From contig NZ_VRTZ01000001.1 in the NCBI RefSeq assembly GCF_008017545.1, positions 248,001 through 312,000 on the forward strand: a stretch of 64,000 nucleotides of DNA, given 5' to 3'. The notes under the pieces were generated by a model. The model was not told the DNA's origin and made no database searches. It saw only the letters and a program-made list of their open reading frames with translations. Made by a program: the position numbers and the translations under genes. This DNA is from Homoserinibacter sp. GY 40078 (GTDB lineage Bacteria > Actinomycetota > Actinomycetes > Actinomycetales > Microbacteriaceae). Positions 10,392 to 22,910 of this stretch are shown in pieces. The first letter of the stretch is position 1. Each line of letters starts with the position of its first letter.

Positions 10392-10841
10392 GTGAGCGAA
10401 CGCTCGGATGCGATCGACGCGTGGGAATCCCTGTACCGCGCGCAGGTGAACGTGCTGCGCCGACTCCGGGCCGAGTTCCCCGATGACGAGGTCTCGTTCA
10501 CCGAGTACGACGTGCTCTTCAACCTCTACCGGCAGCCGGAACGGGCCCTGCGCATCCGCGATCTCAACGCCCACCTGCTGCTCACCCAGCCGTCGGTGAG
10601 CCGCCTGCTCGACCGCCTCGCCGCCCGCGGGCTCGTCACGAAGCGCCGTGACCCCAGCGACGCCCGCGGCACGATCGTCGAACTCAGCGAGCGCGGTGCC
10701 GAGGTCTTCCGCCGCGTCGGCGCACAGCACGGGCGCTCGATCATCGAGCGGATGGCACCCCTCAGCCGTGACGAGCAACGACAGCTCATCGAGCTCACCA
10801 CGAAGCTCCGCGACGGGGCTCCAGGAGAGGCGCGTGGCTGA
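10392..10841 (+). CDS. MarR-family transcriptional regulator
   Basis: This 149-residue winged-helix regulator has the fold visible in order: FTEYDVLFNLYRQPERALRI, recognition helix LLLTQPSVSRLLDRLAARG, wing VTKRRDPSDARGTIVELSERG, and C-terminal dimer helix. GTG at 10392 was chosen, giving a normal MarR length; the open frame upstream lacks a ribosome site. It overlaps the photolyase gene by 8 bases, so the two are co-transcribed. A link to light or oxidative damage is possible but inferred only from the neighbour. Confidence 0.88.
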   Translation: MSERSDAIDAWESLYRAQVNVLRRLRAEFPDDEVSFTEYDVLFNLYRQPERALRIRDLNAHLLLTQPSVSRLLDRLAARGLVTKRRDPSDARGTIVELSERGAEVFRRVGAQHGRSIIERMAPLSRDEQRQLIELTTKLRDGAPGEARG

Positions 10842-12180
10842 GAAGCCGACGCTCGTCTGGTTCCGCGACGACCTGCGCGTCGCCGACCACCCCGCGCTCG
10901 ATGCGGCCGTCTCCCGCGGACGCCCCGTCGTCGCGCTGTACGTGCTCGACGAGACGGGCGACGGCATCCGCGCTCCGGGCGCCGCGGCGCGATGGTGGCT
11001 GCACCACTCGCTCGTCGCTCACCGCGACGCTCTCGCGGCGCTCGGGATCCCGCTCGTCCTCCGGCGCGGAGAGGCGCGGCGCGTCGTGCCGGAGGTGGTC
11101 GCCGAGACGGGAGCCGGTGCCGTCACCTGGAACCGCCGGTACTCTCCCGCACGCCGGATCGACGCGGACCTCAAGCGCACGCTCCGCGAATCCGGCCTCG
11201 AGGTGCACTCCTTCCCGGGCGACGTGCTTGCCGAGCCGCAGGACGTGCGCACCGGCTCCGGCACGCCGTACAAGGTGTTCACGCCGTTCTGGAACGGGCT
11301 GCGGGGTCACGAGGTGCGGCCCGCGATCGGGATTCCGGACGCCGTCGCCGCCCGCGCGAACACCCCCGATAGCGATGATCTCGACGACTGGGGGCTCCTG
11401 CCGACGCATCCCGACTGGGCGGGCGGGCTGCGTCGCGTCTGGACCCCGGGCGAGGAGGCGGCCCGCGCCCGTCTCGACGAGTTCGCCGCCGAGGTGCTCG
11501 ACGACTACGGCGACCGCGACCTCCCCGCCGTCGACGCGACCTCGCGGCTCAGCCCCCGACTGCGCTGGGGCGAGGTGTCGCCCGTGCAGGTGTGGCATCG
11601 CATCCGCGGCGCCCGAAGCGACCATGCCGACGGCTTCCTGCGCGAGCTCGGATGGCGCGAATTCTTCCGCCACACGCTCTTCCATCAGCCCGAGCTCGCC
11701 GCCCGCAACCTCCGCCCCGCGTTCGACGCCTTCCCGTGGGAGGCGCCCGACGAGGCCGAACTCGACGCCTGGCGCCGCGGACGCACCGGCATCCCGCTCG
11801 TCGATGCGGGGATGCGAGAACTGTGGGACACCGGCGTCATGCACAACCGGGTGCGGATGAGCGCCGCGAGCTTCCTCGTGAAGAACCTGCTGATCGACTG
11901 GCGCGTCGGCGAGCAGTGGTTCTGGGACACCCTCGTCGACGCCGACGAGGCCTCGAACCCCGGGAACTGGCAGTGGGTCGCGGGGAGCGGCCAGGACGCC
12001 GCACCCTACTTCCGCATCTTCAATCCCGAGCGGCAGGCGGCGAGGTTCGACCCCGACGGCGCGTATCTCGCGCGGTGGATCCCGGAGCTCGGCACGGACG
12101 CCTACCCGGATCCGATCGTCGACCTCGGCGAGACACGGGCGCGGGCCCTCGCGGCCTACGAGACGATCTCGCGCCGCTGA
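10834..12180 (+). CDS. phr: deoxyribodipyrimidine photo-lyase
   Basis: This 448-residue class I cryptochrome/photolyase probably repairs UV cyclobutane dimers using light. The N-terminal alpha/beta antenna domain starts PTLVWFRDDLRVADHPALD. The C-terminal FAD domain has ELGWREFFRHTLFHQP, GTPYKVFTPFWNG earlier, MHNRVRMSAASFLVKNLL, and the hallmark NWQWVAGSGQDAAPYFRIFN that cradles FAD and the flipped dimer. The GTG start at 10834 follows AGGAGAGG. It is co-transcribed with the MarR gene by overlap and converges on the psuK gene. Confidence 0.95.
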   Translation: MAEKPTLVWFRDDLRVADHPALDAAVSRGRPVVALYVLDETGDGIRAPGAAARWWLHHSLVAHRDALAALGIPLVLRRGEARRVVPEVVAETGAGAVTWNRRYSPARRIDADLKRTLRESGLEVHSFPGDVLAEPQDVRTGSGTPYKVFTPFWNGLRGHEVRPAIGIPDAVAARANTPDSDDLDDWGLLPTHPDWAGGLRRVWTPGEEAARARLDEFAAEVLDDYGDRDLPAVDATSRLSPRLRWGEVSPVQVWHRIRGARSDHADGFLRELGWREFFRHTLFHQPELAARNLRPAFDAFPWEAPDEAELDAWRRGRTGIPLVDAGMRELWDTGVMHNRVRMSAASFLVKNLLIDWRVGEQWFWDTLVDADEASNPGNWQWVAGSGQDAAPYFRIFNPERQAARFDPDGAYLARWIPELGTDAYPDPIVDLGETRARALAAYETISRR

Positions 12181-12196
12181 CCACTCGGCACAACGC

Positions 12197-13084
12197 TCAG
12201 ATGGGCGGGCGCCCGCCGATCACCATGACCGCGCGTGCCGCGACCTGCACGCCCGCTTCGGCCGCCTCGACGGCGGTCGCGCCCCGCACCCACGCGTCGA
12301 GGAACCCCGCCGTGAAGGCGTCGCCCGCACCCGTCGGGTCGACCATCCGCGCGACCGGCGCGGGCACCCGAACCGGTGCGCCGCCGTCTGCCGCGACCAT
12401 CACGCCCTCCGACCCGAGAGTCATCGCCACCACCGGATGCCTCGTCGCGAGCGCCCGCGCCGCGGCCTCCGGTTCGTGCTCGCCCGAGAGCAGCCGCGCC
12501 TCCGCGAGGTTCGGGAAGAGCAACGTGGCGCCCGCCACCGCGTCGAGGAAGGAATCCACCCCGAAGTCGGAGAGGTACCCGGTCGAGGCCGGATTGACCG
12601 ACACCTGCACGCCCGCGGCGGCGGCTGTCGCGAACAGTTCGCGCGTCGTGTCGGCCCCGAAGCCATCCAGGATCGAGTAGCCGCTCACGTGCAGCACCGC
12701 CGTGTCGTCGAGCAGAGCCGCCGGGATGGCGTCGAGTCGCAACGCGGCGTTCGCCCCACGCTCGGTGAGCATCGACCGCACCTCCCCGTCGACCACGATG
12801 ATGATCGTGCCGGTCGGGATGCCATCCTCCACCTGCAGGTGCGGCTCGACCCCGGCCTCGCGGAAGATGCGCTCGTGGATCGCGGCGTCGTGCGCGCCGA
12901 CGGCTCCGACGAAGGCGACATCGGCCCCCAGCGAGCCGAGCCACGCCGCCGAGTTCGCCGCGGAGCCACCGGGCCGCGGCCGGATGCTGGCGGGCGTGTC
13001 GGTGTCGGGGCGCACCGGGATCCGCGGCACGGCGACGATGTCGTTGATGACGTCGCCGACCAGGACGATCCGCCGGGACGTCAT
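12197..13084 (-). CDS. psuK: PfkB-family carbohydrate kinase, probable pseudouridine kinase
   Basis: This 295-residue ribokinase-fold enzyme has the N-terminal PfkB signature region RPGGSAANSAAWLGSLGA and the C-terminal catalytic/ATP signature DPTGAGDAFTAGF with the base Asp. PfkB kinases have many substrates. The overlap of its ATG with the stop of psuG (ATGA at 13081-13084) makes pseudouridine the likely one, giving pseudouridine 5'-phosphate for PsuG to cleave. It is the last gene of the minus-strand chain plsC-AGPS-psuG-psuK. Confidence 0.85.
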   Translation of the reverse strand: MTSRRIVLVGDVINDIVAVPRIPVRPDTDTPASIRPRPGGSAANSAAWLGSLGADVAFVGAVGAHDAAIHERIFREAGVEPHLQVEDGIPTGTIIIVVDGEVRSMLTERGANAALRLDAIPAALLDDTAVLHVSGYSILDGFGADTTRELFATAAAAGVQVSVNPASTGYLSDFGVDSFLDAVAGATLLFPNLAEARLLSGEHEPEAAARALATRHPVVAMTLGSEGVMVAADGGAPVRVPAPVARMVDPTGAGDAFTAGFLDAWVRGATAVEAAEAGVQVAARAVMVIGGRPPI

Positions 13085-13995
13085 CGCGACGAGATGCGCG
13101 ACCAGGCTGTCGCGACCTCGGCCGCGACTCGCACGTTGTTGCGGGCGAGGTCGAGGTTCACCTCGAGGCTGCGCCCGCCCGACGCGTCGACGATGTAGCC
13201 CAGCAGGAACGGGGTCACCGCTTTGCCGCGCACCCCCGCCGCATCCGCCGCTGCGAACGCGGACTCGAGCACGCGGTCATGCTCGGCCGGATCCCACTGC
13301 TGCTCGGCGGGGACCGGATTCGCGAGCACGATCCCGGTGCGCGAGCCGAGCGCATCGCGCGCGGCCATCACCGCGGCCACCTCATCGGCGGTGTCGACCT
13401 TCCAGTCGAGCTCGTATCCGGATTCCCGCAGCCAGAACGCGGGGAACGCGCTCGTGCCGTATCCGATGACCGGCACGGAGAGGGTCTCGAGGCGCTCGAG
13501 CGTCGCGGCGATGTCGAGCACGCTCTTGACCCCGGCGCTGACGACCGTGATCGGGGTCTCGGCGAGGATCGGCAGATCGGCCGACTCGTCGAACGTCTCG
13601 GACGCCCCGCGATGCACCCCGCCGAGCCCGCCGGTGGCGAACACGCGCACCCCGGCGAGCGACGCGAGGTGCGCCGTCGCGGCGACGGTCGTCGCGCCCG
13701 ATCGGCCGAGTGCGGCGAGGATCGGCAGGTCGCGCACGGATGCCTTGGCGAGATCCTCCTCGGCGATGCGGCGCACCCCCTCGGCATCCAGGCCGACATG
13801 CGGCACGCCGTCGAGCACCGCCACCGTCGCGGGAGTCACTCCACGCTCGCGCAGGATCTCCTCGAACTCGATCGCCGCCTCATGGTTGCGCGGGCGCGGA
13901 AGGCCGTGGCTGATGATCGTGGACTCGAGCGCCACCACGGGGCGCTGCTCCTCGAGCGCTGCGGCGACCTCGGGAGCGACGTGCAGTTCGCTCAT
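13081..13995 (-). CDS. psuG: pseudouridine-5'-phosphate glycosidase
   Basis: This 304-residue enzyme cleaves the C-C glycosidic bond of pseudouridine 5'-phosphate to uracil and ribose 5-phosphate. The conserved N-terminal motif VALESTIISHGLPRPRN, the metal/phosphate loop VFATGGLGGVHRGA, and VVSAGVKSVLDIAATLE with the catalytic Lys region are present, as is the C-terminal TPFLLGYI. ATG at 13995 overlaps the stop of the AGPS gene (ATGA). Uracil released here could be salvaged by the Upp encoded at 7372. Its coupling to lipid genes is unexpected. Confidence 0.93.
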   Translation of the reverse strand: MSELHVAPEVAAALEEQRPVVALESTIISHGLPRPRNHEAAIEFEEILRERGVTPATVAVLDGVPHVGLDAEGVRRIAEEDLAKASVRDLPILAALGRSGATTVAATAHLASLAGVRVFATGGLGGVHRGASETFDESADLPILAETPITVVSAGVKSVLDIAATLERLETLSVPVIGYGTSAFPAFWLRESGYELDWKVDTADEVAAVMAARDALGSRTGIVLANPVPAEQQWDPAEHDRVLESAFAAADAAGVRGKAVTPFLLGYIVDASGGRSLEVNLDLARNNVRVAAEVATAWSRISSR

Positions 13996-15698
13996 CCGTC
14001 GACGCGCACGCGGTCGACCGGAACCACCTTGCCGGGGTTGAAGTTCGCGCCCGGATCGACGGCCTGGAACAGTCCGCGCATCACCGCGACGCCCTCGGCC
14101 GAGATGTCCTGCTCGATCCACGGGGAGTGCTCGAGCCCCACGCCGTGGTGGTGCGAGATCGTGCCGCCGTTGTCGACGAACGCCTGCTGGATCGCCGACT
14201 TCACGACGTCGTACTCGCCGATCGGGTCGTCACCGAAGACGAACGCGAAGGTGAAGTAGAGGCACGCCCCCGAGTGATACGAGTGCGAGAGGTGGCACAT
14301 GATCCACCCCTTTGCGCCGATCTCGTCGTAGGCGCGGTTCGCGGCGGTGACGACACCGTCGTAGAGCCCCGCGAGCTTCGACCACGGCGCGGCCGTCTCC
14401 GACACGTCGCCCGCGGCACCCATGTCGAGCAGGAAGTCGCGCAGGTACGGGGTGTCGAACTTCTTCTGGTCGTAGAGCACGCCCGGCCCGGTGCCGACAC
14501 CCATGCCGCCGTGCGCCTTCACGATCGCGCCCACGAGCTTCTTCTGCCGCTTGACGTGGTCGGCGCCGCCCTCGAATCCGATGAACGAGAGGCAGATGTC
14601 CTCGAGGTTCCAGCCCTTGCGACGCATGAGCGTCGGCAGAACTCGCTCAGCGAGCAGCGCGTCGATGCCGTGGCGCTCCTTGCTCGTCGCCATCGAGAAG
14701 CCAGTCTCGCGCGAGTCGGAGACGCGCGTGATGATCGGGCTCGCATCCGACTCCGAGATCGCCTGCATGGCCGCGAGGCCCGCCGACCAGTTGGGGAAGA
14801 AGTAGGCCTGGATCTCGCGCACCTCGGCCACGCGGTGCACCTGGGCCGTGACCTCCGTGATGACGCCGAGGCGGCCCTCGGAGCCGACGATCATCTCGCG
14901 GACGCTCGGCCCGGTCGATGCCGACGGGATCGCCGGGATCACGAGCACACCGTCGCGGTCGTCGTGCGAGGGGCGCACCACGCGCAGGCCGCGGACGATC
15001 TGCGCGATGTCGCCGTACTTGTCCGACTGCATGCCGGAGGAGCGCGTCGCCGCCCAGCCGCCGATCGTCGAGTGGGTGAAGCTGTCGGGGAAGTGGCCGA
15101 TCGTCCAGCCCTCCGCGGCGAGCTGCTCCTCGAGATGCGGTCCGAGCGCGCCCGCCCCGATGCGCGCGAGACCCGACTCGACGTCGATGTCGAGCACGCG
15201 GTTCATGCGGCCCATATCGAGCGAGACCACGGTGCGGGTCTCGTCGGCGTGCGGCTCGAGGCTGCCCGCGATGTTGCTGCCCCCGCCGAACGGGATGAGC
15301 ACGGCATCCTCGGCGACGGCCGCGTCGACGACCTTCTGCACCTCCGCCTCGTCGGCAGGGTAGACGACCACGTCGACAGCACGCGCGATGAGGTTGGAGC
15401 GGATGCGCACGAGATCGCGCAGGCTCTTGCCGTAGGTGTGCACCACGCGATCCATGTCGTCGGTCGACACGTGGTCCTCGCCGACGATCCCGGCGAGCGC
15501 CGCCGTGAACTCGGCGCGCGCAGCGCTCGGTGCGAGGTTGAGCTCGTCAAAGACCGGCTGCTCGGCACGCGTCGCCGTGGAGAGGTCGAGGCCGACGGCG
15601 TTCAGCACGAACGGGGCGAACGCGGGCTTGTCCTCGTGGTGGAAGCCGACGCCCTCCACGCCCCATCCCCACCACTTCATGTGCTCGACAGCGGTCAC
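13992..15698 (-). CDS. alkyldihydroxyacetonephosphate synthase (AGPS) family FAD enzyme
   Basis: This 568-residue flavoenzyme would exchange the acyl chain of acyl-DHAP for a fatty alcohol, forming the ether bond of ether lipids. It follows AGPS closely: an opening KWWGWG, the FAD PCMH domain with IPFGGGSNIAGSLEPHADET (Gly138-Asn142), PDSFTHSTIGGWAATRSSGM, and a C-terminal domain with SGACLYFTFAF (Tyr481 at the position of the catalytic Tyr) and SHHHGVG (His516-518, the essential His cluster). These details separate it from GlcD-type lactate or glycolate oxidases. GTG at 15698 has AAGGAGAG and overlaps plsC by 4 bases. The N-terminal peroxisomal signal of animals is absent. Confidence 0.88.
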   Translation of the reverse strand: MTAVEHMKWWGWGVEGVGFHHEDKPAFAPFVLNAVGLDLSTATRAEQPVFDELNLAPSAARAEFTAALAGIVGEDHVSTDDMDRVVHTYGKSLRDLVRIRSNLIARAVDVVVYPADEAEVQKVVDAAVAEDAVLIPFGGGSNIAGSLEPHADETRTVVSLDMGRMNRVLDIDVESGLARIGAGALGPHLEEQLAAEGWTIGHFPDSFTHSTIGGWAATRSSGMQSDKYGDIAQIVRGLRVVRPSHDDRDGVLVIPAIPSASTGPSVREMIVGSEGRLGVITEVTAQVHRVAEVREIQAYFFPNWSAGLAAMQAISESDASPIITRVSDSRETGFSMATSKERHGIDALLAERVLPTLMRRKGWNLEDICLSFIGFEGGADHVKRQKKLVGAIVKAHGGMGVGTGPGVLYDQKKFDTPYLRDFLLDMGAAGDVSETAAPWSKLAGLYDGVVTAANRAYDEIGAKGWIMCHLSHSYHSGACLYFTFAFVFGDDPIGEYDVVKSAIQQAFVDNGGTISHHHGVGLEHSPWIEQDISAEGVAVMRGLFQAVDPGANFNPGKVVPVDRVRVDG

Positions 15699-16450
15699 GG
15701 TGTCTCTCCTTCGGGCGACGGGTCGGCGGCCACGGGCGCGGAGCCGCGCGACGGGCTCAGAATACGGGGTGCATAGGTGTCGTGCAGCCGCACGATCTCG
15801 GCTCGGAGACGCTCGGTGAACTCGGCCGCCGTCTCCCCCGCCGTGGCCATCATCGGCGCTCCGAAGACGACGCCGACGGGCAGGCGACCGGGCTTCGGCC
15901 AGCTGCTGCCGCGAGGGTGCGCGATGCCGGCCCCCACGAGCGCGACCGGCAGGCAGGGAACCGCGGATGCGATGGCGAGGGCGGCGGCACCGGGCTTGAA
16001 GCGCCCCATCCGTCCCGTGCGCGAACGCGTGCCCTCGGGGAAGACGAGCAGCGGTACGCCGCGGTCGAGGAGGCTCCGGGCGGAGATGCTGCGGGGGTTC
16101 GACCCGCTGCGATCGACGGGGAACGCGTTGAAGAAGAGGGCGGTGAGTCCGCGCCGCCACCACACATCGAAGAAGTAGTCGGCGGCGGCACCCGCGGCGA
16201 GATACCGCGCGAGGCGCCGCGGCAACGCACCCAGGATGAGAGGTGCGTCGAGATGGCTGGAGTGGTTCGCCACCACCACGAACGCCTTCGGCACGTCCCG
16301 AAGCTCGCGGGCTCCGACGACCGTGACCTTGACGGTCGACCATGCCACGGGCTTCAGGATTCCCCGCTGTGCGACGAACCGCGCGGCGGCCTGCGTCTTC
16401 GAGGTGAATCGGTCGCGGCGACGCTGAGGGGCTGCGCTGCTGTCCACCAT
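15695..16450 (-). CDS. PlsC-type lysophospholipid/glycerophosphate acyltransferase
   Basis: This 251-residue membrane-associated acyltransferase has the catalytic H-x4-D motif in VVVANHSSHLDAPLIL, a second block FFNAFPVDRSGSNPRS, the glycerophosphate-binding FPEGTRSRTGRMGRFK and a later LPVALVGAG. Such enzymes acylate 1-acyl- or 1-alkyl-glycerol 3-phosphate, or DHAP in the ether pathway. Its stop overlaps the GTG of the AGPS gene (GTGA), so it is the first gene of a four-gene overlapping chain. General PlsC is usually encoded elsewhere, so this copy is likely pathway-specific. Confidence 0.88.
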   Translation of the reverse strand: MVDSSAAPQRRRDRFTSKTQAAARFVAQRGILKPVAWSTVKVTVVGARELRDVPKAFVVVANHSSHLDAPLILGALPRRLARYLAAGAAADYFFDVWWRRGLTALFFNAFPVDRSGSNPRSISARSLLDRGVPLLVFPEGTRSRTGRMGRFKPGAAALAIASAVPCLPVALVGAGIAHPRGSSWPKPGRLPVGVVFGAPMMATAGETAAEFTERLRAEIVRLHDTYAPRILSPSRGSAPVAADPSPEGETP

Positions 16451-16549
16451 GGATTCAGGCTAGTCCCGACGCATGCCGTGCGGGCGACGTACCGCCGCTG
16501 TTCGGCGGGGACGACCTCCGGAGCGGCGGGGCGCGAGACGCGGCGCGCG

Positions 16550-17320
16550 TCAGTCGCGGTGGCGGGAGCTCGAGATCTTGCGGGAGACCCAGCGGATGGT
16601 GCGCGGGGGTAGGTGGCGCAGCCACCACCCGAGGAAGCGGTACCGCACGCTCGGCACCGAGATCGCGCGACCGCGGTCCACATCCCGCAGGCACGACGCC
16701 ACCAAGTCGTTCGCGTCGAGCCAGAGCCACGAGGGGATCGAGGACTTGCGGATCTCGGCACGGTCGTGGAACTCGGTGTGCACCCATCCGGGTAGCAGCG
16801 CCGTCACCGTCACGCCTGTGCCCTGCAGCGCGTTGGAGAGGCTCTCGCTGTAGACCCGCATCCACGCCTTGATCGCCGAGTAGAGCCCCATCGAGAGGTA
16901 CCCGGCGATGCTCGCGACGTTCACGATCGCGCCGGTACCACGCTCGCGCATCCCGGGCACGACCGCCGCGGAGAGCACGAGGGGCGCACGCATCATCACC
17001 GCGATGGCGTCGTCTGCCTCGGCGATATCCGGATCCGAGATGCGCGACTTCATGCCGTAGCCGGCATTGTTCACGAGCAGGTCGATGGGGCGCGCGGTGT
17101 CGGCAAGGCGCGCGGCCACGCGGTCGACGTCGGCGGGGTCGCCGAGGTCGGCGGTGATCAGCTCGACCTCGCACCCATCCGATCGCAGACCGGCTCCGAA
17201 CTCCTCCAGACGCGAGGACGTGCGCGCCACGAGCACGAGGTCGTACCCACGGGCGGCGAGAGCGCGGGCGAAGGCGGCGCCGATGCCGGCTGTTCCGCCG
17301 GTGACGAGAGCGATGGGCAT
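16550..17320 (-). CDS. short-chain dehydrogenase/reductase
   Basis: This 256-residue classical SDR has cofactor motif TGGTAGIGAAFARAL, NNAGYG, catalytic Ser in VNVASIAGYLSMG and the Y-x-x-x-K pair in LYSAIKAW. After the Rossmann core comes a C-terminal extension rich in Trp and Arg (FLGWWLRHLPPRTIRWVSRK) that looks like a membrane-associating helix. In animal ether-lipid synthesis the acyl/alkyl-DHAP reductase is also an SDR, so this is a candidate for that step. A TATCGT box 7 bases before the ATG suggests a leaderless message. It ends 99 bases before the plsC start, same strand. Confidence 0.85.
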   Translation of the reverse strand: MPIALVTGGTAGIGAAFARALAARGYDLVLVARTSSRLEEFGAGLRSDGCEVELITADLGDPADVDRVAARLADTARPIDLLVNNAGYGMKSRISDPDIAEADDAIAVMMRAPLVLSAAVVPGMRERGTGAIVNVASIAGYLSMGLYSAIKAWMRVYSESLSNALQGTGVTVTALLPGWVHTEFHDRAEIRKSSIPSWLWLDANDLVASCLRDVDRGRAISVPSVRYRFLGWWLRHLPPRTIRWVSRKISSSRHRD

Positions 17321-17393
17321 GTGGCTTACGATACGGTCATCCGGGGCGCGCCTCCCGCCTGCGCGTGCCCGATCAGGAAGGCTCACCACCCCG

Positions 17394-18200
17394 ATGACCC
17401 CGCCAGAAGCGACGGATACCGCCCCGTTCGACGTGCGGGAGTTCGCGCGGACGGCCCAGGCCAGCCACCGCGCCGAGGTCGACCAGGCGGCGATCGCCTC
17501 GTCGGGTCTCGGTGACGACGTGGTGCACCTGATCCGCGTGCTCCGCGACCTCGAACGCGCGACCCTCAACCGGATGCGCAACCTGCTCGTCACCGCCACC
17601 CACAAGGACGCCCGCGTCACGGCGTTCCTCACCACGTGGGCGTTCGAGAAGTTCTGGATCGCCGACGCGCTCGACGCCGTTCTCGAGGCGGTCGATGCCG
17701 ATCCGGCTCCGCTCAGCGGCCCGCTGCGGCGCACCGGTGCCGAACGCGCCGAGCGTCGGGGTCCGATCCTGCGGGCGATCGCGGGCAATATCGCCGGAAC
17801 GCAGCTCGTCGCGGCGCACATGACGACGGGACTCGTCGACGAGTGGATCAGCCAGGTCGCCTACCGCAGACTCGGTAGCGCCGCCTCGGTGCTCTCCGGG
17901 CTTGCGGATCGGCTCGTGGGTCTCAAGGACCGCCACGTGACCTTCCTCGCGGAGGAGGCGGAGCGCCGGCTCGCGCAGTCGGCTCGCGCCGTGAAGCTCG
18001 CGCGGAAGGCGATCGGCCAGGCCGCGTGGCCGATCGGCGCGGTCGAGATCCCCGCAGCCGACCGCAGCTTCTTCGAGAGCTTCGTGTTCGGCGACGCGGA
18101 GGGCCGCGCCGCGGCCGCCCGGATCGGCGAGCGTCTCGCCGCCCTGCCGGGTCTCGGAGCCGCATCCGGTGCCACCGTCACGGCGAGGCTCGTCCCGTGA
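17394..18200 (+). CDS. ferritin-like protein with lost diiron ligands (pseudoenzyme paralogue)
   Basis: This 268-residue helical protein is clearly homologous to the diiron protein at 20529: both have an ungapped LL-T-x-x-HK-x-x-x-V-x-AF segment followed by E-x-FW. The ligands that are intact in the paralogue are altered here. The first E-x-x-H is Lys86/Ile89 (EKFWI) and the second is Lys178/His181 (KDRH); Glu54 and Glu150 remain. It probably cannot hold two irons and may act as a partner or scaffold of the intact copy. ATG at 17394 has AGGAAGG upstream. Its stop overlaps the next gene by 4 bases (GTGA). The family resembles acyl-ACP desaturase-type proteins, but I cannot name it firmly. Confidence 0.8.
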   Translation: MTPPEATDTAPFDVREFARTAQASHRAEVDQAAIASSGLGDDVVHLIRVLRDLERATLNRMRNLLVTATHKDARVTAFLTTWAFEKFWIADALDAVLEAVDADPAPLSGPLRRTGAERAERRGPILRAIAGNIAGTQLVAAHMTTGLVDEWISQVAYRRLGSAASVLSGLADRLVGLKDRHVTFLAEEAERRLAQSARAVKLARKAIGQAAWPIGAVEIPAADRSFFESFVFGDAEGRAAAARIGERLAALPGLGAASGATVTARLVP

Positions 18201-20512
18201 CCCCGAAGCGCGCGAAGACCGACCTCGGCGACGCCCACGTCTTCCTCACGGGCGGCACCGGGTTCGTCGGGCAGGCCGTGCTCGAGCGCCTGCTGTCGAC
18301 CCACCCCGGAACCCGGGTGACGCTGCTCGTGCGCACAAAGGGCTCTGCCGCCGGGGAGGATCGCGTGCGCACCCTGCTGCGCAAGCCCGTCTTCCGCTCG
18401 TGGCGGGAAGCCGTCGGCGACGAGGGGGTGGAGGCGGCGGTGCGCGAGCGCATCCGCGTCGTCGAAGGCGGACTCGGATCGGTGCCCCCGCTTCCCGACG
18501 ACATCGACGTCGTGATCCACTCGGCCTCGACCGTGTCGTTCGACCCGCCCATCGACCAGGCGTTCGACACCAACGTGGGCGGGGCGATCGGGCTCTACGA
18601 GGCGCTGCGCGCATCCGGATCGACGCCGCACGTCGTGCACGTGTCGACCTGCTACGTGGGCGGCCTGCGCAAGGGCGTCGTGCCGGAGGCGCGGCTCGGC
18701 CACGAGATCGATTGGCGCGCCGAGTACGCGGCCGCGAAGTCGGCCCGGGAGCGCGTCGAGCTGCATTCGCGTCAGCCCGCGCAGCTGCGCGAGTTCATGG
18801 ATCGCGCGCGCGCCGTGCACGGCAAGGAGGGCCCGCAGGCCGTCGCCCGTGCAAGCGAGCAGGCGCGCATCGACTGGGTCACGCGCACGCTCGTCGACGC
18901 CGGACGCACACGCGCCGAGTCGCTCGGCTGGACCGACGTCTACACGCTCACGAAGGCGTTCGCCGAGCGAGCGGCCGAGGAGCTGTGGGCCGGAACCGGC
19001 GGATCGCTCTCGGTGGTGCGCCCCGCGATCATCGAGTCGGCGCTGCAGCACCCGTTCCCGGGATGGATCGACGGGTTCAAGGTCGCCGATCCGCTCATCC
19101 TCGCCTACGGTCGCGGCCTGCTGCCGGAGTTCCCGGGGCTCCCCGACAGCGTGCTCGACATCATCCCCGTCGACCATGTCGTCAACGCGATCCTCGCCGC
19201 CGCCGCGAACCCGCCGAAGAGCGAGCCCGAGTACTTCCACATCGCATCCGGTGCCTCGAACCCGCTCCCGTTCCATCGGATGTTCGAGAACGTCAACGAG
19301 TACTTCACGGCGAACCCCATGCCGACCCCGGGCGACGGGCACGTGCGCGTGCCGACCTGGCGGTTCCCGGGTGGACGCAAGGTGGAGCGGGCGCTGCGCC
19401 GGTCGCGGGCACGTCTGGAGCGCCGCGAGCGGTGGCTCACCCGTCTGCCCTCCACCACGAAGACACGCGCGCAGCTCGCCGAGCTCGGCACGAAGCGCAG
19501 CGACCTGGAGACGCTCGAGAACTTCTCTGAGCTGTACCGGGCCTACGTGCAGACCGAGATCATCTTCGACGACACCAATGCCCGCGCGCTCCATGCGGCG
19601 CTCCCGGCGAAGGTGCGTGCGGATCGTGGATTCGACGTGACCGCGATCGACTGGGAGGACTACCTGCAGAAGGTGCACTTCCCCGCGATCACGACCCTCA
19701 CGCGCGCATTCTCGCGCCGCCCCGAGGCCACCAGCACCGAGGGTCGCCCGGCCAAGCAACTGCCCGAGCGCACGGATGTGGTGGCCGTCTTCGACCTCGA
19801 GGGCACCGTGGTCGACACGAACCTCGTCGAGCAGTACCTGTGGGTGCGCTCCTCCGGTTTCGGCTGGGCGGCGTGGCCCGCATCCGTCGCCTCGATCCTC
19901 GCCCAGCTGCCCGGCTACCTGCGGGCCGAGCGCCGCGACCGGGGCGAGTTCATCCGCACGTTCCTGCGCCGCTACGAGGGCATGACCGCCGACCGCCTCT
20001 CGCGCATCGTCGGGGGCGGATACGCGGACACCATGCTCGGCCACACCGCGACGGCCGCCCTCGAACGGGCCGCGGCTCACCGTGCGGCAGGCCACCGGAC
20101 GGTGCTCGTGACCGGATCGATCGGCACCCTCACCGAACCCGTCGCGGCTGCCTTCGACGAGGTGGTCGCGAGCGAGATGCACGTGAAGGACGGCCAGCTG
20201 ACGGGCTACCTCTCCCGGCCTCCGCTCGTGGATGAAGCCCGCGCCAACTGGCTGCGGCAATACGCCGACCGCGGCGGATACGACCTCGGCGCCTCCTACG
20301 GCTACGGCGACAGCCACGCCGACCTCGTGTGGCTCGAACTGCTCGGACACCCGCACGCGGTGAACCCCGACAGCCGGCTGGCCCGCGAGGCCGGACGCAG
20401 ACGTTGGCGGATCGACACCTGGAAGAGCGGGTCCCGTTCAGCCAATCGTGCTTTGATGACGAGAGGCACCGCACCCGCAACCCGTGAGGAAGGAGCGGAC
20501 GGCACGCGCTGA
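18197..20512 (+). CDS. fatty acyl-CoA reductase-like SDR fused to HAD-IB phosphatase
   Basis: This 771-residue two-domain protein has an extended SDR of the male-sterility/fatty acyl-CoA reductase type at residues 1-360: TGGTGFVG (18-25), HSASTVSFD, VSTCYVGG, and Tyr249-x-x-x-Lys253 in DVYTLTKAF. A linker of about 160 residues with two Arg-rich helices follows. Residues 525-745 form a HAD-IB domain: VFDLEGTVVD (nucleophile Asp533), LVTGSIG, and YGYGDSHADLVWLELLG. The usual second Asp of motif I is Glu535. Expected roles are acyl-CoA to fatty alcohol, and removal of a phosphate from a lipid intermediate. It is coupled to both ferritin-like genes (GTGA overlap upstream, 16-base gap downstream). 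Confidence 0.87.
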   Translation: MTPKRAKTDLGDAHVFLTGGTGFVGQAVLERLLSTHPGTRVTLLVRTKGSAAGEDRVRTLLRKPVFRSWREAVGDEGVEAAVRERIRVVEGGLGSVPPLPDDIDVVIHSASTVSFDPPIDQAFDTNVGGAIGLYEALRASGSTPHVVHVSTCYVGGLRKGVVPEARLGHEIDWRAEYAAAKSARERVELHSRQPAQLREFMDRARAVHGKEGPQAVARASEQARIDWVTRTLVDAGRTRAESLGWTDVYTLTKAFAERAAEELWAGTGGSLSVVRPAIIESALQHPFPGWIDGFKVADPLILAYGRGLLPEFPGLPDSVLDIIPVDHVVNAILAAAANPPKSEPEYFHIASGASNPLPFHRMFENVNEYFTANPMPTPGDGHVRVPTWRFPGGRKVERALRRSRARLERRERWLTRLPSTTKTRAQLAELGTKRSDLETLENFSELYRAYVQTEIIFDDTNARALHAALPAKVRADRGFDVTAIDWEDYLQKVHFPAITTLTRAFSRRPEATSTEGRPAKQLPERTDVVAVFDLEGTVVDTNLVEQYLWVRSSGFGWAAWPASVASILAQLPGYLRAERRDRGEFIRTFLRRYEGMTADRLSRIVGGGYADTMLGHTATAALERAAAHRAAGHRTVLVTGSIGTLTEPVAAAFDEVVASEMHVKDGQLTGYLSRPPLVDEARANWLRQYADRGGYDLGASYGYGDSHADLVWLELLGHPHAVNPDSRLAREAGRRRWRIDTWKSGSRSANRALMTRGTAPATREEGADGTR

Positions 20513-20528
20513 CGCCGCCCGGTCACAT

Positions 20529-21326
20529 ATGGCATTCGACATCGACAAGTACACGGCGAACTCGGATGCGGTCGCGTGGGGCGACCTCGACTTCGACACC
20601 TTCGACACGGATCCACTGCCGCCCGAGAGCCTGCGCACGCTGCGGTACATGTGCGACATCGAGTACCACACGGTCTGCTACCTGCGTGATCTGCTGACGA
20701 CGCCCTCGCACAAGGAGCCCGAGGTGGGCGCCTTCATGACGATGTGGAATCGCGAGGAGTTCTGGCACGGCGAGGCTCTCGCCGCGGTGCTCGCGAAGCA
20801 CGGCATCACGGTCGACTTCGACCAGCTGAAGGCGACGCGCCTGAAGCTCGGCTGGAAGGACCGCCTCGACCCGATCAAGCAGTCGGTCATGGGCGGGCTC
20901 GTCGGCAACGACTTCGTCGCCGTGCACATGGCGTGGGGCGCGGCCAACGAATGGTCGGCGAACGCCGCCTACCTGCGCATGGCCGAGCTCGAGGGGCACC
21001 CGGTGCTCGCGGAGCTGCTGAAGCGGATCGCCCGCCAGGAGACCCGCCACGTAGCCTTCTACGCCTCGCAGGCTCGCGACCGCCTGAAGGACTCGAAGAA
21101 GGCGCAGAAGCTCGCGCGGTTCGCGCTGTCGCGCTTCTGGGGTCCAGTGGGCTCCGGGGTGCAGGATGACGCCGAGGTCACCCACGTGATGAACCATCTC
21201 TTCGGGGGCGCCGAGGGCCGCAAGCTCGTGCGCGACGTCGACTCGCACATCGCGAAGCTCCCGGGGCTCGAGGGGCTGACGATCGTCGAGGACTCGCTCG
21301 AGAAGCGCGGCGTCGCCGCCGCCTGA
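20529..21326 (+). CDS. ferritin-like diiron protein, putative desaturase/oxygenase
   Basis: This 265-residue four-helix-bundle protein has a full acyl-ACP-desaturase-like ligand set: Glu45 (DIEYHT), Glu77-x-x-His80 (EEFWH), Glu141 (NEWS) and Glu171-x-x-His174 (ETRH). It is therefore a likely oxygen-dependent oxidase, desaturase or hydroxylase on a lipid chain. It starts 16 bases after the reductase-HAD gene and is paralogous to the ligand-poor protein two genes upstream. In an ether-lipid context one candidate reaction is formation of the vinyl ether of plasmalogens, but no sequence feature proves this. No membrane span is seen. Confidence 0.83.
   Translation: MAFDIDKYTANSDAVAWGDLDFDTFDTDPLPPESLRTLRYMCDIEYHTVCYLRDLLTTPSHKEPEVGAFMTMWNREEFWHGEALAAVLAKHGITVDFDQLKATRLKLGWKDRLDPIKQSVMGGLVGNDFVAVHMAWGAANEWSANAAYLRMAELEGHPVLAELLKRIARQETRHVAFYASQARDRLKDSKKAQKLARFALSRFWGPVGSGVQDDAEVTHVMNHLFGGAEGRKLVRDVDSHIAKLPGLEGLTIVEDSLEKRGVAAA

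Positions 21327-21346: not shown

Positions 21347-22910
<1,564 letters not shown>

Follow-up and report, generated by a model that had tools for sequence, protein, structure and literature searches.

A candidate aerobic ether-lipid gene cluster in Microbacteriaceae with a possible new kind of vinyl-ether enzyme

The window analysed here, 64,000 nt of contig NZ_VRTZ01000001.1 (positions 248,001 to 312,000) from Homoserinibacter sp. GY 40078, carries six genes. Judging from their sequences, four of these very probably encode the core of an aerobic ether-lipid pathway that runs through dihydroxyacetone phosphate (DHAP), namely a fatty acyl-CoA reductase (FAR), an acyltransferase, an alkyl-DHAP synthase homologue (AGPS) and a short-chain dehydrogenase/reductase (SDR). 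The other two encode ferritin-like proteins, for which the labels FerA and FerB were coined in this analysis. On balance we favour a joint reading in which 1-O-alkyl glycerolipids would be made by the aerobic DHAP route and part of them turned into vinyl-ether plasmalogens, and we hypothesize that the cluster holds a candidate new kind of vinyl-ether enzyme within an ether-lipid pathway of otherwise known type. The compact cluster reported in a first-pass annotation of the window is present in full; all six genes lie within 7335 bp (13992-21326) in two divergent groups, three on the minus strand and three on the plus strand:

13992..15680, minus strand: AGPS-family FAD enzyme, candidate alkyl-DHAP synthase (562 aa from ATG 15680; GTG 15698 is an alternative start)
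15695..16450, minus strand: PlsC-type acyltransferase, candidate DHAP acyltransferase or sn-2 acyltransferase (Pfam Acyltransferase, 72.8 bits; motifs NHSSHLD and FPEGTRSR)
16550..17320, minus strand: SDR, candidate acyl/alkyl-DHAP reductase (Pfam adh_short, 139.9 bits; motifs TGGTAGIG and YSAIK)
17321..17393, no strand: intergenic spacer from which the two operon-like groups diverge (73 bp)
17394..18200, plus strand: FerB, ferritin-like FerA homologue (E=1.7e-33) that has lost both EXXH motifs, candidate for an inactive partner subunit
18197..20512, plus strand: FAR-HAD, fatty acyl-CoA reductase (about 18245-19192) fused to a HAD-IB phosphatase-like domain (about 19784-20335)
20529..21326, plus strand: FerA, soluble ferritin-like diiron protein with six invariant ligand positions, candidate delta-1' alkyl-ether desaturase

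The start of FAR-HAD is joined to the stop of FerB by a GTGA overlap. A consensus scan for promoters and terminators was empty, with no sigma-70-like site in the 73-bp intergenic region.

Conservation and enzymes of the putative ether-lipid core

The named FerA search returned 254 relatives, and the synteny counts cover the best 80 of these. All six genes occur in the order and orientation of the window in 64 of the 80 named loci, and the arrangement is therefore conserved far beyond chance. Two further loci hold all six genes rearranged and 14 are partial. The 66 six-gene loci belong to Protaetiibacter, Homoserinibacter, Schumannella, Pseudolysinimonas, Salinibacterium, Rhodoglobus, Lacisediminihabitans, Plantibacter, Labedella, Herbiconiux, Amnibacterium, Arenivirga, Galbitalea, Glaciihabitans, Frigoribacterium, Agreia, Subtercola, Agrococcus, Agromyces seonyuensis, one Leifsonia metagenome-assembled genome (MAG), two Microbacterium, four Streptomyces and two Phytoactinopolyspora. 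Among the partial loci, three are located at the end of a contig (L037, L076 and L091), five from Agromyces and two from Leifsonia hold only FerB and FerA, and three from Jiangella and one from a MAG (L105) hold only FerA. On the linear, 2.35-Mb Streptomyces plasmid NZ_CP109481.1 all six genes are present (L150, 3662-11641), and this location suggests horizontal spread of the cluster. Two other genes recur by the AGPS end of the cluster, a TetR regulator (L047, 2112-2657; family in 24 loci) and a diacylglycerol-kinase-like gene (L047, 1047-2033; 12 loci), each with one member identified by Pfam.

The AGPS homologue has the Pfam domains FAD_binding_4 and FAD-oxidase_C, and in phmmer comparisons it scored 360 bits against the AGPS structure 2uuu, which we take to be from Dictyostelium, 281 bits against the peroxisomal AGPS 4bby, presumably from guinea pig, and 73 bits against the best non-AGPS flavoprotein. 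The residues aligned to H300, D303, R419, Y578 and H615-617 of 4bby, which we take to be catalytic, are kept in 72/72 relatives with a near-full-length match, and the position of T309 is Thr in 65 of these and Ser in seven. The motifs GACLYF, SHHHGVG and TIGGWAATRSSGM named in the first-pass annotation are all found in the window protein, but the residues that it numbered Tyr481 and His516-518 become Tyr475 and His510-512 if translation starts at ATG 15680; the +6 offset fits the upstream GTG 15698, which overlaps the stop of the PlsC gene. A role as glycolate or lactate dehydrogenase is ruled out by the gap between 360 and 73 bits, and the glcD model TIGR00387 gave 112 bits on this protein, with a cut-off of 568. 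The window AGPS is predicted to exchange the acyl chain of acyl-DHAP for a fatty alcohol.

Motif patterns in the remaining core enzymes were counted over 66 relatives, as tblastn matches that may be cut short. The PlsC pattern NHxSHLD was present in 64 and [FL]PEG[TR]R in 37, and the SDR pattern YxxxK in all 66. The best NCBIfam model for the SDR, mycolate reductase, fell well short of its cut-off, at 143 of 380 bits. A membrane-like tail had been ascribed to the SDR, but residues 225-256 are unlike a membrane helix, since they are basic and aromatic with a mean Kyte-Doolittle value of -0.93. FAR-HAD matches Pfam NAD_binding_4 (153 bits) and HAD (109 bits), its reductase aligns with the solved fatty acyl-CoA reductase 7eoz (E=6.4e-48, residues 10-498), and the reductase patterns YxxTK and GGxGF occur in 64 and 27 relatives, respectively. 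HAD phosphatases usually carry DxD; the HAD domain of the cluster instead has FDxEGT in 62/66 relatives, the other four giving no match, and its phosphatase activity may be altered or lost.

In the proposed pathway, the reductase domain of FAR-HAD would convert a branched fatty acyl-CoA to a fatty alcohol, the PlsC protein would acylate DHAP, AGPS would replace the acyl chain by the alcohol to give 1-O-alkyl-DHAP, and the SDR would reduce the ketone to yield 1-O-alkyl-glycerol-3-phosphate, to which housekeeping enzymes would attach a head group and the sn-2 chain. The 1',2' double bond would then be introduced by FerA, which would use O2 at its diiron site and have in FerB a partner that lacks a complete metal site. 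The data show family-level gene identity, retention of key residues, synteny and co-inheritance. We infer the substrates of PlsC and SDR from the pathway alone, and the part given here to the HAD domain and the reaction given to FerA/FerB are likewise inferred. The first-pass annotation had proposed a family-level candidate for every step. For the ether-lipid core this is well supported by homology, key residues and conserved synteny, and also because the core stays together in Jiangella and in genome G388, where it is not linked to FerA; for the plasmalogen step the support is correlative.

FerA, FerB and a putative vinyl-ether step

Both proteins are ferritin-like, as the first-pass annotation had stated, but the full diiron ligand set is present only in FerA, where both EXXH motifs are found and E45, E77, H80, E141, E171 and H174 are invariant in 81/81 sequences. 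Three of the six ligands are gone from FerB in 75/75 sequences: position 77 is Lys or Arg in all 75, and none has His at position 80 or Glu at position 171, the latter being Lys in 70 and Arg, Gln, Thr or Asn in the others. The remaining ligands are retained to different extents (E45 in 75/75, E141 in 55/75 and H174 in 58/75), and from this pattern FerB looks like a partner subunit that has lost its metal site. Over the 66 six-gene loci, mean pairwise identity is highest for FerA (0.74), followed by AGPS (0.71), FAR (0.64), SDR (0.62), PlsC (0.61) and FerB (0.48).

Neither protein is well described by existing models. FerB had no Pfam match and FerA matched Pfam only below curated cut-offs, with 19.8 bits for the window protein against the soluble desaturase family PF03405 (cut-off 22.7 bits). 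PF03405 weakly matches 46/48 FerA members at E<=0.01, and the rubrerythrin model 45/48. A FerA profile gave only four weak matches in the PDB, with a designed helix bundle on top; the acyl-ACP desaturase DesA2 (1za0, E=0.0027) was the sole natural enzyme among the matches at E<=0.01. A search of PHROGs returned nothing for either protein. Soluble acyl-ACP desaturases have a six-ligand diiron site with two EXXH motifs, and FerA resembles PF03405 members such as DesA2 in its ferritin-like character, its two EXXH motifs and its six-ligand site; it differs from them in falling below the PF03405 cut-off and in being paired with FerB, which lacks part of the metal site. FerA/FerB may be the vinyl-ether enzyme of the cluster, an assignment that we hold tentatively. 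It could, with due reserve, be pictured as a two-subunit, soluble, O2-using diiron enzyme in which one subunit carries the metal site and the other the fold with a partial site.

Dimethylacetals, gene co-occurrence and rival explanations

Dimethylacetals, read in the first-pass annotation as the mark of vinyl ethers, were said there to occur in Microbacteriaceae such as Subtercola and Frigoribacterium. The statement holds for Subtercola, since four of its species have i-16:0, a-15:0 and a-17:0 dimethylacetals in a published table (PMC5945732, used in excerpt, as are PMC7472656, PMC9287328, PMC9131029, PMC13200781 and PMC9702350), but a literature search by genus name listed no such report for Frigoribacterium. 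Two Frigoribacterium MAGs carry the cluster among the best 80 of the 254 FerA relatives. The presence of AGPS could be set against reported dimethylacetals, as the first-pass annotation had proposed: window-type AGPS was found in 12/12 genomes of the genus inferred as Subtercola and, at E<=1e-150, in 2/149 genomes of that inferred as Microbacterium, a genus not known to contain dimethylacetals. All four loci examined from the inferred Subtercola hold the whole cluster and a second acyltransferase-like match. This second PlsC-type acyltransferase lies between FAR and FerA (L183, 13860-14345; L184, 13043-13675; L185, 13819-14277; L186, 5938-6396), and in L106 (6549-8851) it is accompanied there by a lactate-racemase-like (Lar_N) gene. 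Agreia, with the cluster in both of its loci among the best 80, is listed with low dimethylacetals, and Frondihabitans with none, 14:0 2-OH being among its major acids (PMC5945732). The production of plasmalogens by cluster carriers is thus supported by correlation, and we are inclined to think that carriers do make vinyl ethers.

The naming of fatty acid peaks also bears on this question. In Kineococcus, the peak called 'C14:0 2OH' by the MIDI system was a-15:0 dimethylacetal by gas chromatography-mass spectrometry (GC-MS), and MIDI names dimethylacetals only with its anaerobe library (PMC7472656). MIDI values for 2OH-C14:0 are 10.4% in S. boreus, 9.9% in S. frigoramans, 15.6% in S. vilae and 3.9% in S. 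lobariae (PMC9287328), and those for a-15:0 dimethylacetal 11.0%, 10.3%, 3.2% and 9.7%, respectively (PMC5945732). In these excerpted tables the two figures are close for S. boreus and S. frigoramans and discordant for S. vilae and S. lobariae; the agreement for S. frigoramans is possibly due to chance, since its row in PMC9287328 has only 1.6% a-15:0. The literature search added no dimethylacetals in further genera. In titles and abstract openings of the open-licence PubMed Central articles listed by the searches, no genes assigned to actinobacterial dimethylacetals were found and no report tying the cluster to plasmalogens, and the words 'plasmalogen', 'ether lipid', 'dimethyl' and 'desaturase' are absent from the S. 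vilae genome paper (PMC6518244).

In the family sample (150 genomes; thresholds >380 bits for FerA and >460 bits for AGPS), FerA and AGPS occurred together in 38 genomes, FerA alone in six, AGPS alone in two and neither in 104, counted, as in the class sample below, as raw genomes uncorrected for kinship. One FerA-alone genome (G107) is that of L037, in which the cluster is cut by a contig end, and the two AGPS-alone genomes are incomplete (77% and 85%). In the class sample (325 genomes; thresholds E<=1e-50 for FerA and >580 bits for window-type AGPS), 21 genomes had both, 13 FerA only, 15 AGPS only and 276 neither. Thirteen of the 15 AGPS-only genomes belong to a single genus, g130. Two loci of this genus (L161 and L162) have window-type AGPS (61% identity) with no other cluster genes nearby, and a FAR homologue lies elsewhere in both genomes. 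Genes can also be unlinked within one genome: window-type AGPS is found elsewhere in the genomes of Jiangella (3/3), L105 and L091, and the core genes FAR, PlsC, AGPS and SDR of Jiangella and G388 are together, away from FerA, which sits elsewhere.

Several observations weigh against the joint reading. To the missing correction for kinship are added the mismatches of the class sample, in which 15/36 genomes with window-type AGPS have no FerA at the threshold used. An oxygen-dependent desaturase had been proposed in the first-pass annotation, and FerA with FerB is a plausible candidate for it, but the pair persists without window-type AGPS or FAR (E<=1e-20) in 5/5 Agromyces (L078, L093, L097, L103 and L111) and 2/2 Leifsonia (L101 and L107) genomes tested, the exception being one AGPS-like match in Leifsonia flava, with 27% identity. 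FAR was looked for in six genomes that hold distant FerA relatives; four (G317, G173, G261 and G291) have it without window-type AGPS, the FAR query matched only the HAD part in G196, and G354 gave no match. FerA is without a hydrophobic segment, whereas the vinyl-ether desaturase known so far sits in the membrane, and PF10520 (CarF/PEDS1) matched 0/325 class genomes, that of the window included, with the controls equally matchless. As for lipids, the excerpted profile of S. endophyticus, which carries the whole, intact cluster, has neither the 2OH-C14:0 peak nor dimethylacetals (PMC9287328); the profile is not decisive, since summed feature 8 (18:1) makes up 76.7% of the fatty acid. No lipid data were found in the literature for Protaetiibacter, the genus of the nearest named matches.

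Several of these points agree with an alternative in which the cluster yields only saturated alkyl (plasmanyl) ethers, FerA/FerB act elsewhere, for instance on a carrier-bound acyl or alcohol chain, and the Subtercola dimethylacetals come from a gene outside the cluster. The seven pair-only genomes are consistent with it, as are the weak similarity of FerA to an acyl-ACP desaturase as its sole natural-enzyme match in the PDB and genomes G181 and G369, in which AGPS, PlsC and SDR are adjacent with no FerA match in the genome. We nevertheless consider it unlikely, as FerA accompanies the rest of the cluster in 66 of the 80 named loci and no other protein of the six is as well conserved. In the FerA tree, moreover, three changes are needed to account for the 11 rows that have no AGPS nearby, and these rows fall within cluster-bearing ones, the AGPS-less Agromyces and Leifsonia rows as if derived. 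Since the pair-only rows lack AGPS and FAR and nest in this way, either FerA/FerB were kept for another task after loss of the core or their substrate is broader than alkyl ethers. In Agromyces, Leifsonia and Jiangella, the genes around FerA/FerB (LigD, ABC1 kinase, PLDc_N/SHOCT, Na/H exchanger, luciferase-like, fumarase-like and spermine-synthase-like) offer no clear lipid context.

Two other explanations appear far less probable. FAR and FerA/FerB could form an aldehyde-processing pair, loosely like the cyanobacterial acyl-ACP reductase and aldehyde-deformylating oxygenase, next to a separate AGPS module. FerA comes after FAR in most loci, and the four distant-FerA genomes with FAR and without window-type AGPS would fit; Agromyces and Leifsonia, however, retain FerA/FerB without FAR, FAR adjoins AGPS rather than FerA in Jiangella and G388, and FerA matched no aldehyde-deformylating oxygenase model in a scan of Pfam, which presumably holds one, so that this pairing is very improbable. 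The idea that the AGPS homologue forms no ether bond, being instead one of the oxidases or dehydrogenases of its flavoprotein superfamily, draws on a second AGPS-like type that is widespread in the class and about 38% identical to the window type. This type keeps the Tyr and His residues, yet none of the other five cluster genes was near it in the four loci examined. It has Gln in place of D303 in 4/4 loci fetched, whereas the window type keeps Asp303 and is accompanied by FAR, acyltransferase and SDR. One second-type member scored 296 bits with AGPS and 124 with the best non-AGPS protein; the window type, with its wider gap (360/73), is therefore closer to true AGPS, and an oxidase role for it is hardly credible. 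We retain the joint reading, alkyl glycerolipids of which part would become plasmalogens.

Known plasmalogen systems and the wider neighbourhood

In the neighbourhood of the cluster, an NADP-specific glutamate dehydrogenase (21347-22690, minus strand) scored over its model cut-off, and a photolyase-like gene (10807-12180, plus strand) scored below curated cut-offs. At 12197-13998 on the minus strand, a sugar-kinase-family gene is next to a gene without an NCBIfam match that we take, from its sequence, to resemble pseudouridine-phosphate glycosidase.

The anaerobic route was traced by PF09989, which we take to be a domain of PlsA. It matched one of the 150 family genomes (G062, a non-carrier), no cluster carrier and not the genome of the window, and 4/14 controls. 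The G062 match (contig C22, 30899-31555; L176) lies within an 1848-aa open frame, and this one Microbacteriaceae genome may have an anaerobic plasmalogen route. The plasmalogen synthase PlsA/PlsR of Clostridium gives the same kind of product, but by direct reduction of a diacyl lipid, with no DHAP or AGPS (PMC9702350).

In the animal peroxisomal route, FAR1, GNPAT, AGPS and DHRS7B/PexRAP are followed by PEDS1/TMEM189 (PMC9131029; PMC13200781). The first four steps have family-level counterparts here, with the key residues of AGPS kept; the differences are that all lie in one bacterial cluster, that FAR is fused to HAD, and that a soluble diiron pair stands in the place of PEDS1, which was not found in a search with no positive control. 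CarF is confined to few other bacteria according to the excerpted review PMC9131029. Myxococcus xanthus (MXAN_1676-1674 and elbA-elbE, with CarF) is likewise aerobic, with an AGPS operon including FAR-like and acyltransferase domains, and the HAD protein ElbB of its elb operon is a further likeness; its FAR-like domain, however, is fused to acyltransferase rather than to HAD, and its vinyl ether is made by the membrane protein CarF (PMC9131029).

If the proposed role is true, plasmalogens would have a third, independent route, with FerA/FerB standing beside CarF/PEDS1 and PlsA/PlsR, and the reports of dimethylacetals from aerobic Microbacteriaceae would be accounted for. Judging from the excerpted reports on 'C14:0 2-OH' MIDI peaks, plasmalogens may also hide in other published actinobacterial profiles. 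With this cluster, the genetic basis of actinobacterial dimethylacetals becomes testable in environmental bacteria by deleting single genes.

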